A stretch of DNA of 46,965 nucleotides from Ardenticatenales bacterium (GTDB lineage: Bacteria; Chloroflexota; Anaerolineae; Epilineales; Epilineaceae): NCBI GenBank assembly GCA_020853525.1, contig JADYYS010000017.1:1-46965 (forward strand). The letters are read 5' to 3'. Below, piece after piece: positions 27,338 through 33,180 of the stretch (positions are counted from its first letter, which is position 1; the number at the start of each line of letters is the position of its first letter). The notes below the pieces were generated by a model. The model was not told where the DNA came from and did not search any database. It was given only the letters and a program-made list of their open reading frames with translations. A program made the translations under genes and the position numbers.

Positions 27338-28531
27338 TTACCCCACCCGCTCCACCACCACCGCCGTGCTCCCGCCCGTCCCGTGGCACAACGTCGCCAG
27401 GCCGAGGCTCTTGCCCCGATCGGCCAGCGCGGCCAGCAGCGTGACGATCAGCCGCGCGCCCGTCGCGCCGATCGGGTGTCCGAGGGCGATCGCGCCGCCG
27501 TTCACGTTCAGCTTTTCGTAGGGTACGCCCAACTCGCGGTGGAACAGGACGGAGTTCACCGCGAAGGCCTCGTTGTTCTCGAAGAGGTCGATATCGTCGA
27601 CCGTCATGCCGAGCTGGTCGAGGAGCTGCTTGACCGCCGGGATCGGCGCGGCGGCGAAGCGCCAGCCCGGGCCGGCCGCCCAGGTGTGGCCGAGGACCTT
27701 GGCGATGGGCTTGAGACCGTGGGCCGCCACGGCATCGCCGCTGGCGACGACGAGCGCCGCAGCGCCGTCCGTCAGCTGGCTGGCGTTGCCGGCGGTGATC
27801 ACGCCGTCCGGGTTGAACGCCGGCCGGAGCCTGGCCAGGCTTTCCAGCGTCGTGTCGGGCCGGATCCCCTCGTCGCGGTCGACGACGGTCACGCCCTTGC
27901 GGCCCTGGATCTCGTACGGCGCGATCTCGCCCGCGAACTTGCCGCCATCCGTCGCCGCCGCGGCGCGGCGGTGGGACTCGAACGCCACCTCGTCGAGGTC
28001 GGCGCGGCTGATCCCGAACTCGGCGGCCAGCCGCTCCGTCTGATCGCCCATCCGCTCGCCGGTCAGCGGGTCCGTCAGGCCGTCGTGGTCGAGCAGGTCG
28101 ATCAGCGGCTCGGACTTGCCCGAGATGTACTTGTAGCCCCAGCGCGCCGCCGGCCGGAGCAGGAAGCCGCTCTGGGACATCGACTCCGTGCCGCCGGCGA
28201 CCATGATGTCGCGCTCGCCGGCCTTGATGTGCGTCACGGCGTTCATCGTGGCCAGCATGGCCGAGCTGCACACCATGTTCACGTGGTAGCCGTCGATCGT
28301 GTCCGGGATGCCGGCCTTGATGGCGGCCTGGCGGGCGATCAACTGCCCGTGCCCGGCGCTGACGACGTTGCCGAACACGTAGCCGTCGACGGCCTCGGGG
28401 GCGACGTTGCCGCGCGCCAGGGCCGCGCGCATCGCGTGCGCCCCGAGGTCGACCGGCGAGACGTCCATCAGCCCGCCGCCGAACTTGCCGAGGGGCGTCC
28501 GAGCGCCCGAGACGATGAATGCTTCCTTCAT
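27338..28531 (-). CDS. phaA: Acetyl-CoA C-acetyltransferase (thiolase)
   Basis: This 397-residue thiolase condenses two acetyl-CoA into acetoacetyl-CoA, the first step to polyhydroxybutyrate; the same fold also works in beta-oxidation. The acyl-accepting Cys88 lies in NMVCSSAM, the base His352 in ALGHPIGATG and the second Cys382 in LCHGTGGST. The opening FIVSGARTPLGKFGG is standard. The ATG at 28531 follows an AAGGAG-type site. It is the last gene of the phasin-phaE-phaC-phaA run. A phaB reductase is not in the window and must be encoded elsewhere if the pathway is complete. The symbol rests on context as much as on sequence. Confidence 0.92.
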   Translation of the reverse strand: MKEAFIVSGARTPLGKFGGGLMDVSPVDLGAHAMRAALARGNVAPEAVDGYVFGNVVSAGHGQLIARQAAIKAGIPDTIDGYHVNMVCSSAMLATMNAVTHIKAGERDIMVAGGTESMSQSGFLLRPAARWGYKYISGKSEPLIDLLDHDGLTDPLTGERMGDQTERLAAEFGISRADLDEVAFESHRRAAAATDGGKFAGEIAPYEIQGRKGVTVVDRDEGIRPDTTLESLARLRPAFNPDGVITAGNASQLTDGAAALVVASGDAVAAHGLKPIAKVLGHTWAAGPGWRFAAAPIPAVKQLLDQLGMTVDDIDLFENNEAFAVNSVLFHRELGVPYEKLNVNGGAIALGHPIGATGARLIVTLLAALADRGKSLGLATLCHGTGGSTAVVVERVG

Positions 28532-28607: not shown

Positions 28608-29696
28608 TCACGACCGCGCGTCGAGCCATTCCACGAGCGCCGCCGGCAATGTCTTCTGCACCTTGCCGCTGACGTACATGCCGATGTGGCCGACCGGATA
28701 GGACAGTTCCTTGTAGTCCGTCGTGCCCACGCGCCCGGCCAGCGCCAGCGACGAGGCCGGGGGGACAAGATGGTCCTGCTCGGCGAAGACGTTCAGCACC
28801 GGCATCGTCACGGCCTTCAGGTCGACGCGCCGGCCGCCGAGCTCGACCTCGCCGGCGATCAGCTTGTTGTCCTGGTAGAAGTCCTTCAGGAACTGGCGAT
28901 AGGCCTCGCCGGCCTGATCCGGGCTGTCGAAGATCCACTTCTCCATCCGCAGGAAATTGCGGACCTTCGTCTCGTCTTCGGCGATGTCCAACAGTCCGGC
29001 GTACTTGGCGACGTTCAGCTGGAACGGCTTGAGCATCAGGAAGCCGAGGTTCATGAAGTCGCCGGGGATATTGCCAAGCGCATCGACCATGAGGTCGATG
29101 TCCATCGGCCGCGCCCAGGCGTTCAGCAGACCGCACTCGGCGCCGCTCTCCGCGTGGAAGTCGACCGGGGCGACCATCGCGATGAGGCTCTTGACCTTGT
29201 CGGGATGCAGCGCCGCGTAGCACAAGCTGAACGTGCCGCCCTGGCAGATCCCGAGGACGTGGATCGCCGGCTGGCCCGATCGCTCGCGGACCTCGTCCAC
29301 GCAGCGGTCGATGTAGCCGTTGATGTAATCGTCCAGCGTCCGCCAGCGGTCGGCCCGGGTGGGGTAGCCCCAGTCGATCAAGTAGACGTCGAGGCCGAGG
29401 TCCAGCAGGTTGCGGACGAGGGAGCGGTCCTCCTGGAGGTCGACCATGTACGGCCGGTTGACGAGCGCGTACGAGATCAACAGCGGCACCGGCCGCGGTT
29501 CGGCCACGCGCGGCGTGAAGCGGTAGAGCGTGATCCCATCCTCGCTCCAGACCGCCTCCTTGGCCGAGCAGCCGACCGTCACATCGTCGCTGTCGATGCG
29601 CGAGAGCGTCTCGACGCCGGCCACGGTCTGGCGGCTCATCTCGGCCAGCTCGCGGGCGAACGTCTCAGGCGTGATCGCGAACACGTTGGGCATCAT
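28608..29696 (-). CDS. phaC: Class III PHA synthase subunit PhaC
   Basis: This 362-residue alpha/beta-hydrolase polymerises 3-hydroxyacyl-CoA at the granule surface. The nucleophile Cys151 sits in the lipase-like box GICQGG, with Asp308 in EQDHLVPP and His337 in VGHIGMYV. DVYLIDWGYPTRADRWRTL is a PhaC hallmark. The short length and adjacency to phaE identify class III, in which PhaC needs PhaE. The start codon overlaps the phaE stop by one base (TGATG). A full AAGGAGGT site ends six bases before it, so PhaC translation should be strong and coupled. Confidence 0.96.
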   Translation of the reverse strand: MMPNVFAITPETFARELAEMSRQTVAGVETLSRIDSDDVTVGCSAKEAVWSEDGITLYRFTPRVAEPRPVPLLISYALVNRPYMVDLQEDRSLVRNLLDLGLDVYLIDWGYPTRADRWRTLDDYINGYIDRCVDEVRERSGQPAIHVLGICQGGTFSLCYAALHPDKVKSLIAMVAPVDFHAESGAECGLLNAWARPMDIDLMVDALGNIPGDFMNLGFLMLKPFQLNVAKYAGLLDIAEDETKVRNFLRMEKWIFDSPDQAGEAYRQFLKDFYQDNKLIAGEVELGGRRVDLKAVTMPVLNVFAEQDHLVPPASSLALAGRVGTTDYKELSYPVGHIGMYVSGKVQKTLPAALVEWLDARS

Positions 29697-30889
29697 CAGG
29701 ACACCTCCTTGTCGGTCGCCTTGTCGGTCGCCTTGCCGGTCGCCTTGTCGGTCGAAGCCCGGCCCGCCGTGCGCGTCGTGGGCTGCGCCGCCGCCATCGC
29801 CCGGCGGAGCTCGCGAACCTCGCGCTTGAGGGCGTGCAAACGCCGGTTCGTCTCATCCAGCTCGCTGCGCGACGGGATGTCCGTCATCTTGAGCGCCGTC
29901 TCGGCGATGTCGCGTTCGCGCAGGCGATAGCGCATCGCCGCGGCCAGCATCGCGGCCTGCGCCTCGGCGTAGCGCGGCGCGCGGAAGGCGTCCTCGAGCG
30001 AGCCGTCGGTGGCTTCGGACCAGACGTTCACGAACTCGCGCAGGCTGGTGATCGGCGTGTTCGCCTCGGCCCGCCGGCGGAGCATGTCGACCCCCGCCTG
30101 CCCGGACGCCGCCCAGGCTTCGTTCAGGACGACGCTGAACTCGAACACCGCGCGTCGGTAGTCCACCCAGGCCTCGAAGCCGCGCTGCAGCATCTCGGTC
30201 GTCTCGCGGGAATAGCCCATCGACGGCGTCTCGAGGAGACGTCCGGCGCTGCGCTCCCATGCGTCCCACAGGAGGCGCGTCTGGCCCAACATCTCGGAGC
30301 TGTCGCCGCCGAAGGCGCGCGAGGCCGACGTCGGCACCTCCTTGATCAGGTTCGCCCACGGTCCGGGCAGTCGCTCAAGGGCGGCAAGGTAGCCGGCCCA
30401 AAGGCTGTTCATGTCGCCGGGCGGCGTGCCAAGGCCGGACCACGGCACGGCGATCGACTGCTGCATCAGCCGGCCGAACGCATCGAGCTTGGCCGTCGTC
30501 TCCTCGGGCGAGGTCGCCGGCGCCGAGAGCATCGACCATGCCTGCTGCATGAGCGCACCGTAACGGAGCATCGTCTCCTGGGTGGCCGCCATGCCCTGGG
30601 CTGCGTCCCTGGCCACCGGGTCCGCCCCGGCCGTCCATGCCGTCGTGGTCTGGTGCGCCAGCTGCCGCCACGAGGCCAGCCACGCGTCCGTTGCACCCGA
30701 CCATGGCGAAGCACCCGGCCATTGCGCGGCGCCCGGCCACGCGGCGCCGGTCGGGGCGGCGCCGGTCGGAGCCGCGCCCGCGGTCTGGGCGCCGGCGGCC
30801 GCAAGGTCAGCCCACTGCGACCACATCTGACGCTGGGCATCGACCATGCCCTGCCACATCGAACCGATCCCGTCCTGACCCTCGCTCAT
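29696..30889 (-). CDS. phaE: Class III PHA synthase subunit PhaE
   Basis: This 397-residue partner of PhaC has a helical core. The segment SMGYSRETTEMLQRGFEAWV followed by DYRRAVFEFSVVLNEAW, and SLREFVNVWSEATDGSLEDA near residue 290, are the conserved PhaE/PHA_synth_III_E region. Residues about 35-65 form a Gly/Ala/Pro/Trp repeat (APTGAAPTGAAWPG). A C-terminal coiled coil (ELDETNRRLHALKREVREL) may bind PhaC or the granule surface, and a Lys/Asp/Thr repeat ends the chain. The ATG at 30889 lies nine bases after GAGGGG; the ATG at 30898 directly touches that site and is less likely. The stop overlaps the phaC start. Confidence 0.9.
   Translation of the reverse strand: MSEGQDGIGSMWQGMVDAQRQMWSQWADLAAAGAQTAGAAPTGAAPTGAAWPGAAQWPGASPWSGATDAWLASWRQLAHQTTTAWTAGADPVARDAAQGMAATQETMLRYGALMQQAWSMLSAPATSPEETTAKLDAFGRLMQQSIAVPWSGLGTPPGDMNSLWAGYLAALERLPGPWANLIKEVPTSASRAFGGDSSEMLGQTRLLWDAWERSAGRLLETPSMGYSRETTEMLQRGFEAWVDYRRAVFEFSVVLNEAWAASGQAGVDMLRRRAEANTPITSLREFVNVWSEATDGSLEDAFRAPRYAEAQAAMLAAAMRYRLRERDIAETALKMTDIPSRSELDETNRRLHALKREVRELRRAMAAAQPTTRTAGRASTDKATGKATDKATDKEVS
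29708..29755 (-). repeat. Four 12-bp tandem repeats at the phaE 3' end
   Basis: Four copies of a 12-base unit (one with a single change, and a changed last base in the outermost copy) encode the Thr-Asp-Lys-Ala/Gly tail of PhaE. The innermost copy merges with the AAGGAGGT site of phaC, so slippage here could alter only the PhaE tail and leave phaC translation intact. Confidence 0.8.
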
Positions 30890-30957
30890 GGCGCCCATCC
30901 CCTCGACGGCACGGAGCCGCTCGGTGCCCGGCGCGCACGCCGGCAGTTGAAACGACG

Positions 30958-31043: not shown

Positions 31044-31463
31044 TTAGTTCTTGCGGGCGGCCTTGGCCGTGTCCGCGACGCTCTCGGCCATCTCGCGGCC
31101 GGCGGTCGCGAACTCGGCGACCTGCGTCTGCGCGACGCGCGCCTGCGCCTGCACGGCCTTCACGGTCTCCTGGGCCATCGACTGGCCGGCCGTGCTCAGC
31201 GTCTCGGCGAGCTTGGTGGCCTGGTGCACGCCGGTCTGGACCTGACCCTGCCACGCCTCGGCGGCCTTCTGGATCTGGGCCTGCTCGCGCTGCGCCAACT
31301 CCTGGATGCGGTTCGCCGTGTCGGTGAACAGCACATTCCACTGCTCGCGCAGCGAAACGAGGGCTTCCATCTGGGCCTTCGTGGCCTCGAGGTTGAAGTG
31401 GTTCCAGGCGGTGAGGGTCTCGTTCCACTGGCTCAGGTTCGTCTTGACGGTCTCGGGCATCAT
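31044..31463 (-). CDS. Phasin-like PHA granule protein
   Basis: A 139-residue, almost wholly alpha-helical, Gln/Ala-rich protein (QWNETLTAWNHFNLEATKAQ, AQARVAQTQVAEFATAGREM). This is the amphipathic composition of phasins, which coat polyhydroxyalkanoate granules and control their size. The start is the first of two adjacent ATGs (31463/31460) behind AGGAGAG. It is the first gene of the phasin-phaE-phaC-phaA run and has its own promoter with a SARP-like operator. The family call rests on composition, size and neighbourhood. Confidence 0.78.
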   Translation of the reverse strand: MMPETVKTNLSQWNETLTAWNHFNLEATKAQMEALVSLREQWNVLFTDTANRIQELAQREQAQIQKAAEAWQGQVQTGVHQATKLAETLSTAGQSMAQETVKAVQAQARVAQTQVAEFATAGREMAESVADTAKAARKN

Positions 31464-31552
31464 CGTGGTCTCTCCTAGGCGTATCGGCACCCCGCGATCC
31501 GCAGGGTGGCTTTCGTGTTTCGCCGGCTACGCATTCGTGCCGTACGATGGAC

Positions 31553-31584
31553 AGTCTACCCAGGTGAGTTACACACCAGTTACA
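31553..31584 (-). promoter_or_regulatory. SARP-type operator and -10 box for the PHA operon
   Basis: On the minus strand the heptamer TGTAACT occurs at 31584-31578 and again at 31573-31567, separated by GGTG, giving an 11-base period. Exactly eight bases later stands TAGACT (31558-31553), a plausible -10 box, with no -35. Characterised SARP activators bind heptamer repeats with four-base gaps whose last copy is eight bases from the -10. A SARP-family gene lies about 0.7 kb upstream. The predicted start is near 31546, leaving a leader of about 83 bases before the phasin ATG. Confidence 0.6.
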
Positions 31585-31622: not shown

Positions 31623-31647
31623 GTAGGGGCGGGTCTCAGACCCGCCC
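31623..31647 (+). repeat. Single REP-like element with GTAG head
   Basis: GTAG is followed by an inverted repeat with 10-bp arms (31627-31636 against 31638-31647) and a one-base loop. Head and outer stem (GTAGGGGC...GCCC) match the elements at 27201-27293, but the stem core differs, so it looks like a sister family. It lies between the 194-residue unknown gene and the phasin promoter. Confidence 0.65.
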
Positions 31648-31665: not shown

Positions 31666-32250
31666 TCACGACGTCGATTCGCCCAAATCCCGCCCCCCCA
31701 ACGCCGCCTCAACCCGCGCCACCTTCTCGTCCAGCGCCTGCAGCCGGGCCGCCACCTCACCCAGCGCGGCCAGCACCGCCGCCGCGTCCGGCGGGCGCTT
31801 GTCCTTGTCGGCGGCCGCCCCCGTACCCAGAAACGGCGACCACCACGTCAGCGAGCGCTCGATCTGCTCACCCACCTGCTGGCGTACGGCCTCCGACTTC
31901 GCCATCGTCTGGCTGAAGGCGTCGAGCATGTACGTGGCGTAGCCGCTCGTCACGCGCTCCCACAGCTGGAAGCTGTCGGCCAGCGCCTGTCGCTGGTCGT
32001 CCGGCGAGCGGTCGGCGACGGCGTTCATCGTCAGCGTCGCCAGCTGGTGCTGCATGAACGCCACCGCGTCGGCGAACTCGGTGAAGCGCGCCTCGGCATC
32101 GCTCTGGACGTGCCGGATATGGCCCCGCCAGCGGACGCGCGACTCACCGCCCTCATCCGCATAGAGATCCTGGGTGAACCGCAGGACGAACGAGGCGATG
32201 TCCCCTCCCGCCTCCGTCGGTCGCCGCGCACCGCTATCACGCTCAGCCAT
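31666..32250 (-). CDS. Unknown helical protein of the PHA locus
   Basis: I do not recognise this 194-residue protein. The N-terminal part reads FVLRFTQDLYADEGGESRVR and then WRGHIRHVQSDAEARFTEF, a compact segment that looks conserved. The middle is helical with aromatic residues (SFQLWERVTSGYATYMLDAF). After a Lys/Asp-rich turn, the C-terminus is a clear coiled coil (VLAALGEVAARLQALDEKVA). The helical character and the place between a SARP-family gene and the phasin suggest a second granule-associated or regulatory PHA protein, but that rests on position. The start is the ATG at 32250, 45 bases after the regulator gene. Confidence 0.72.
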   Translation of the reverse strand: MAERDSGARRPTEAGGDIASFVLRFTQDLYADEGGESRVRWRGHIRHVQSDAEARFTEFADAVAFMQHQLATLTMNAVADRSPDDQRQALADSFQLWERVTSGYATYMLDAFSQTMAKSEAVRQQVGEQIERSLTWWSPFLGTGAAADKDKRPPDAAAVLAALGEVAARLQALDEKVARVEAALGGRDLGESTS

Positions 32251-32295: not shown

Positions 32296-33180
32296 CTACG
32301 CCCCCACTCCGAGCCGGACGGAATCGTACACCGCCCGCGTCTGCGGCAGCGGGGCGATGCCGAGCTCGCTCTCCAGCGCCGCCACGCACCGCTCCCAACT
32401 GCGAATCGCCAGCGCCCGGTTGCCGCGGGCGGCGTGAGCGCGCATCTCGATCCGCCAGGCGTCCTCCCAAACCGGGTCGGTCGCCAGGACGTGGCCCGTC
32501 AGCCGCAGGCTCTCGAGCGGGTTCGTCTCGACGAGCAGCTCCGCCAGCGTCGTCATCGCCCCGAACGCCAGCACCTGCAGCCGCTCGTGCTCGCTGCTCG
32601 CCCAGTCGTCATAGCGTCGTTCGGGGAGATAGTCCCCGCCGTACAACGCCGCCGCCGCCGCATAGTGCGCCGCGGCCCCGTCGCGGTCGCCGCCGATCAG
32701 CCGGTTGCCGGCCGCCACGTGCCCCTCGAGCGCCTCGGCATCGACCCACGCCTCCGCCAGGTCGATGCCGTATGCCGCTCCCCAGCGCCGAACGAAGCGC
32801 GGCTCGGCCCGTGCCGCGCGGTCCGGTTCGAGCGCCCGCTGCACGGCGTTCAGCGCCACCTTGAAGTCCCTGTCCCCGGCGGCCGCATCGAGATCCGGCC
32901 AGAGCGCGTCGACGATCTGCTCCTTGTCGAGCCGCTTGCGCCGGAGCGTCACGACGAACTGGAACAGCTGGACCGCCTTGTCCCGACCCCAGGCGGCCGG
33001 CAGCACCGGCACGCCGTCCCGCCAGACGCGAAACGCGCCCAACGTCTGGACGACGAGCGGCACGACCCGAATCGCCGCAGCCAGCGGGTCATCCCGCACG
33101 CCCGCCGGATCATCGGGGGACTGCGGTGGGTCGGACGCCTGAACGCTCACGCGGTCGATTGTCGTCGCCGATCCGACCAC
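32296..33180 (-). CDS. SARP-family regulator (winged helix + BTAD)
   Basis: A 294-residue DNA-binding activator. An OmpR-like winged helix covers about residues 40-125 (VQTLGAFRVWRDGVPVLPAA, QIVDALWPDLD, RDFKVALNAVQRALEP). A bacterial transcriptional activator domain of helical repeats then runs to the end (AAAALYGGDYLPERRYDDWA, ALAIRSWERCVAALESELGI). No ATPase or sensor domain follows, so it is the compact SARP form. It is translated from GTG at 33180 or, possibly, GTG at 33150; neither has a strong ribosome-binding site. Its family binds phased heptamers, and such a repeat stands before the phasin gene downstream, so it probably controls PHA formation. Confidence 0.87.
   Translation of the reverse strand: MVGSATTIDRVSVQASDPPQSPDDPAGVRDDPLAAAIRVVPLVVQTLGAFRVWRDGVPVLPAAWGRDKAVQLFQFVVTLRRKRLDKEQIVDALWPDLDAAAGDRDFKVALNAVQRALEPDRAARAEPRFVRRWGAAYGIDLAEAWVDAEALEGHVAAGNRLIGGDRDGAAAHYAAAAALYGGDYLPERRYDDWASSEHERLQVLAFGAMTTLAELLVETNPLESLRLTGHVLATDPVWEDAWRIEMRAHAARGNRALAIRSWERCVAALESELGIAPLPQTRAVYDSVRLGVGA

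Follow-up and report, generated by a model that had tools for sequence, protein, structure and literature searches.

A probable SARP-type operator in front of a PHA granule operon in a Chloroflexota bacterium

The stretch of DNA analysed here (the window, 46,965 nucleotides of an Ardenticatenales bacterium contig) carries two TGTAACT heptamers just upstream of a -10 box and ahead of a set of PHA genes. We infer, with a probability of about 87%, that the SARP-type regulator encoded at 32296-33180 switches on phasin-phaE-phaC-phaA through this operator, which would act as a substitute for a -35 box. What we observed is the site and how it is conserved, the association of the site with both the regulator and the target genes, and the architecture of the regulator. 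On the minus strand the order is regulator, WRG-HVQ gene, operator, phasin-like gene, phaE, phaC and phaA, as follows.

32296..33180, minus strand: regulator of SARP type with winged helix and BTAD, 294 aa (PF03704, 71.2 bits against a cut-off of 22.1; profile and fold both match AfsR and EmbR)
31666..32250, minus strand: WRG-HVQ gene, 194 aa, between regulator and operator (in most relatives a homologue is the first gene past the operator; model)
31578..31584, minus strand: upstream heptamer TGTAACT (sequence; NGYAACN form kept in 16 of 18 loci)
31567..31573, minus strand: downstream heptamer TGTAACT, 11 bp past the first (sequence and conservation)
31553..31558, minus strand: -10 box TAGACT, 8 bp past the second heptamer (sequence and conservation)
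31044..31463, minus strand: phasin-like gene, 139 aa, first after the operator (orthologues in G001 and G002; sub-threshold Phasin_2; position in the PHA operon)
29696..30898, minus strand: phaE, PHA synthase class III subunit (PF09712, 134 bits)
28608..29696, minus strand: phaC, class III PHA synthase (TIGR01836, 510.9 bits against a cut-off of 365.3)
27338..28531, minus strand: phaA, acetyl-CoA acetyltransferase (TIGR01930 above its cut-off; Pfam thiolase N and C)

A class III PHA synthase operon is recognised by a class III phaC beside phaE, and this criterion was met by the TIGR01836 and PF09712 matches; the window phaE scored below the cut-off of the PhaE model TIGR01834. The start of phaA was placed by the profile match, and its open reading frame continues further upstream. 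An earlier note on this DNA had placed the regulator gene correctly, two genes upstream on the same strand, and had called the first gene after the operator a phasin. That label is supported by the gene's operon position and by sub-threshold matches, but no phasin family model reached its cut-off (PF09361, 14.9 bits against 24.9), so we use the name phasin-like, which rests on position and helical make-up.

Read on the minus strand from 31584 to 31553, the site is TGTAACT GGTG TGTAACT CACCTGGG TAGACT, with the heptamer pair, the GGTG gap and the eight bases to TAGACT exactly as the earlier note had them. It lies 90-121 bp upstream of the phasin-like ATG at 31463, in agreement with the 90-120 bases given before, and AGGAGA precedes that start codon. 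The absence of a -35 box, also claimed earlier, is consistent with a promoter pattern search that matched no sigma-70-type promoter upstream of the phasin-like gene. From this arrangement the transcript start is predicted near 31546. Within the window, TGTAACTN4TGTAACT with at most 3 mismatches has a single match (0.15 expected; at least one match in 13 of 100 shuffles), and within the 4.27 Mb genome, with at most 2 mismatches, it again has a single match. The backwards control pattern has 2 matches in the genome, so the scarcity of the heptamer pair alone is weak proof. A short way upstream of the operator, at window positions 31627-31647, lies a palindrome, GGGCGGGTCTGAGACCCGCCC; it is REP-like, and the genome has about a dozen scattered near-copies.

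Conservation was assessed in 18 loci with the same or a closely related regulator gene, each over the 1.5 kb downstream of the regulator stop codon. A scan of a genome collection contributed two of these, from MAGs titled Chloroflexota and Anaerolineales, and scans of the class and phylum contributed others. The closest stand-alone regulators scored at least 374 bits and the next matches, mostly long proteins, below 275 bits; two stand-alone regulators from below this gap (G180 and G231) were included as near relatives. The named loci are from metagenome assemblies, and two pairs of genomes share a genus (G303 with G277, and G089 with G112). The pattern NGYAACN-N4-NGYAACN-N8/9-TAnnnT was present in 16 of these 18 loci. 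It had been derived from the window and then refined on the relatives, so the controls matter more than base counts: dinucleotide shuffles gave a mean of 0.007 loci (maximum 1 in 300 rounds), and neither the opposite strand nor the reversed sequence gave any. Pairs of GYAAC were found 17 times at a spacing of 11 bp and at most twice at any other spacing.

The earlier note had asked whether the heptamers and the 8-base gap are conserved in relatives, and its interpretation is supported by this test. The heptamers, their 11-bp period and a gap of 8-9 bp are conserved in the 16 loci, with the correction that TAnnnT mostly follows at 9 bp (14 loci) and at 8 bp only in 2, the window and G001. G001 and G002 belong to the same family as the window and have orthologues of both the regulator and the phasin-like gene. 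Before the latter, G002 carries TGTAACT GGCG TGTAACT N9 TATGCT and G001 carries TGTAACT CGGC GGCAACT N8 TATCCT, and in both the operator has been kept although the flanking sequence diverged. A MAFFT alignment of the promoters misplaced the G001 heptamers, and sites were therefore located by pattern.

These results bear on whether the repeat is an operator at all. Some ECF sigma factors have GTAAC-like -35 boxes, and TGTAAC could in principle be such a box for an alternative sigma factor, or a chance repeat; we give these two possibilities almost no weight. Chance is excluded by the conservation in 16 of 18 loci and rejected by the shuffle, opposite-strand and reversed controls. An ECF-type -35 box was rejected on spacing, the second heptamer ending 8-9 bp and the first about 19-20 bp from the -10 box, and versions with three copies exist.

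The genes behind the operator point to PHA formation. The next gene is a WRG gene in 13 of the 16 loci and a phasin-like gene in the window, G001 and G002, and the genes beyond are often phasin-like, phaB-like, phaE or phaC. The WRG-HVQ gene is the most constant operator target across the clade; in the window it lies between regulator and operator. One genome, G405, has three operators: one precedes a WRG gene, another a pair of small phasin-like genes with phaC behind them, and the third a FabG/PhaB-like gene. In G277 an unlinked phasin-like gene is preceded by a similar element, TGCAACT CAAC TGTAACT N9 GATAAT. The two loci without an operator downstream of the regulator, in G317 and G255, have an unrelated gene there and not PHA-type genes. 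In G255 the WRG gene is on another contig, where TGTAACC GCGC TGCAACT N9 CAGACT precedes it and a reductase gene follows. The operator thus stays with its PHA-type target when the regulator is unlinked, which indicates that it belongs to the target. The same G255 operator, together with the window and G002, where one gene lies between, led us to reject the idea that the motif is merely the regulator gene's 3' end. The synthase genes are not always included, since G335 and G328 have phaE loci elsewhere in the genome at which no operator was seen. Judged from these sequences, the same arrangement of regulator, operator and PHA genes appears to recur in relatives across the class.

The assignment of the 32296-33180 product to the SARP family, made earlier from the sequence alone, is upheld by its relation to AfsR and EmbR in both profile and fold. 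The Pfam search returned BTAD only and did not match the winged helix. An 18-row profile of the regulator found AfsR at an E-value of 1e-8 and EmbR at 3e-4, and in the AlphaFold model (pLDDT 88) these two were the only PDB matches with E below 0.001, EmbR with a TM-score of about 0.73. An N-terminal OmpR-type winged helix was accepted on the full-length profile alignment to both proteins and on the model, and BTAD follows it directly, as expected of a SARP. The winged helix is OmpR/PhoB-like, and weak PhoB matches were also seen in the profile search. The recognition helix was compared at the residues by which AfsR contacts DNA (PMC10936776). In an ungapped alignment AfsR W74, R87 and K95 fall on W94, K107 and R115 of the window regulator, and AfsR T88 and R92 on V108 and A112, which would fit backbone contacts that are retained and a base specificity that is altered relative to AfsR.

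In published SARP sites the repeat period is 11 or 22 bp, and 8 bp separate the final repeat from the -10 box (PMC10936776). By analogy, the window site fits this scheme. Heptameric direct repeats with an 11-bp period are supported by sequence and conservation, in the absence of binding data, and the 8 bp from the last repeat to a -10 box, in place of a -35 box, is met in the window and is one base longer in most relatives. At such a site the two heptamers would take the place of the promoter's -35 region. Two protomers of the regulator would bind side by side on the same face of the DNA, on TGTAACT repeats one helical turn apart, and would offer an alternative docking surface for sigma region 4 and RNA polymerase. 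Transcription would then begin from the TAGACT box just downstream, and the phasin-phaE-phaC-phaA granule operon would be switched on. AfsR works by sigma adaptation (PMC10936776) and PimR needs two heptamers for binding (PMC5930380). For the window, binding, activation, AfsR-like sigma adaptation, the transcript start and a single transcript of the four genes are all inferred, as there are no binding or expression data.

Among the closest described systems is AfsR on the afsS promoter of Streptomyces coelicolor (PDB 8HVR, 8JKE and 8K60; PMC10936776), the best PDB match to the regulator by profile and by fold. Like the window system, AfsR combines a winged helix and BTAD with direct repeats of 11-bp period that end shortly before the -10 box, and with a poor or absent -35 box; it differs in being large, with C-terminal NOD and TPR domains, and in its CGTTCATC-like repeat. 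ActII-ORF4, DnrI and RedD (PMC10972967, PMC10936776) resemble the window regulator in being stand-alone winged helix plus BTAD proteins that use heptamers with 4-bp gaps and 8 bp to the -10 box, but their heptamers are different and their targets are actinomycete antibiotic clusters. PimR and other SARP-LAL regulators (PMC5930380) share the two or three heptamers with 4-bp spacers, of which at least two are needed for binding; the PimR heptamer, however, is CGGCAAG, and its main operator does not overlap the -35 box. EmbR of Mycobacterium tuberculosis (PDB 2FEZ and 2FF4) has the same winged helix plus BTAD fold. The window regulator, unlike AfsR, is stand-alone, comes from Chloroflexota, goes with a TGTAACT repeat and has PHA genes as its apparent targets. 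EmbR differs from it in having an extra FHA domain and arabinosyltransferase genes as targets.

The same kind of operator also lies directly downstream of genes for long regulators whose winged helix and BTAD are C-terminal (L058-L069, L075, L085 and L098), some with three copies; the one long regulator that was scanned has NTPase and TPR regions before the winged helix. In most cases an approximately 80-aa WRG-only protein follows, together with FabG-like, acyl-CoA ligase, FabH-like or CoA-transferase-like genes, names that were assigned by reading the translations. When 50 domains are placed on a tree, the label for the motif has to change 7 times, against 16.9 with shuffled labels. As far as sequence comparison can tell, the operator type is common to the stand-alone regulators and the long BTAD paralogues, so the exact pairing of regulator and operator in the window is not proven. 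A genuine operator bound by a different BTAD regulator of the same genome therefore has to be considered, and the window genome has 5 regulator-like matches. Such a paralogue acting at the window operator cannot be excluded; we nevertheless hold it to be quite improbable, because almost all genomes with the stand-alone clade show it linked to both the operator and PHA-type genes, and because the window genome has no second such site within 2 mismatches.

Across 26 genomes the strict pattern TGTAACY-N4-TGTAACY-N8/9-TAnnnT gave 18 matches and none backwards, and 11 of the 18 lie directly downstream of, or one gene from, a gene of this BTAD clade; a relaxed pattern gave 15 matches against 0 backwards. 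Of the remaining matches, L124 is upstream of a ketoacyl-synthase-III-like gene, and others (L128-L130) have no clear PHA or BTAD link. Two of these, L128 and L129, in G303 and G277 of one genus, are downstream of genes for an FtsK/SpoIIIE-like ATPase and a small membrane protein; their neighbourhoods hold neither a BTAD gene nor an obvious PHA gene.

Pho boxes are also direct repeats of about 7 bp with an 11-bp period beside a -10 box, and PHA synthesis is often higher under phosphate limitation. Together with the OmpR/PhoB-like winged helix of the regulator itself, this raises the prospect that the site is a Pho box, on which a PhoB/PhoP-type response regulator of the OmpR family would couple PHA synthesis to phosphate starvation. 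We regard this as highly improbable. No GYAAC pair was found in any of 18 pstS upstream regions from 12 of these genomes, some of which carry TTTAAC/TTTACA-type 11-bp repeats instead, and the element goes with BTAD genes in 11 of its 18 strict matches. The TTTAAC/TTTACA-type repeats were seen upstream of pstS at L175 and L182, and in weaker form at L168 and L177; they are probably the Pho box of these Chloroflexota.

The WRG-HVQ proteins are an undescribed family, comprising the window protein (31666-32250, motif WRGHIRHVQ) and homologues at L037, L040, L102, L104-L109 and L111-L114. In the model, the N-terminal part is beta-beta-beta-alpha and holds WRGxIxHVQ, and the C-terminal part is helical and phasin-like. 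Neither Pfam nor NCBIfam gave a match over cut-off, and a PDB fold search with the model gave nothing significant. We can only tentatively suggest a code that extends through the Chloroflexota, with the GYAAC operator common to small SARPs and long NTPase-TPR-BTAD regulators, which would jointly govern PHA granules and acyl-CoA/fatty-acid genes. In such a code, the WRG-HVQ protein may be bound to the granule and, as a partner of the regulator, signal the state of the granule back to it. That role is played elsewhere by PhaR, a different protein.

SARPs are known as antibiotic cluster switches in actinomycetes, and PhaR, PhaQ and PhaD are not known to belong to the protein family of the window regulator. 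Like the system proposed for the window, PhaR, PhaQ and PhaD act by local control of phasin and synthase genes (review PMC9049629). The text of that review contains no SARP, AfsR, BTAD or Chloroflex-, and in the open-access literature we found no description of SARP/BTAD control in Chloroflexi or of PHB. What appears new here is a pairing of SARP and operator that would serve PHA and acyl-CoA metabolism in bacteria other than Actinobacteria, its binding and activation being inferred. For following how winged-helix recognition changes between heptamers, the 18 loci with the regulator form a natural set together with the long paralogues. The operator is a short, testable DNA code through which PHA synthesis in the mostly uncultured Chloroflexota could be approached at the promoter level. 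In this other phylum, a primary carbon-storage pathway appears to have a dedicated switch in a SARP-type regulator and the operator that goes with it.
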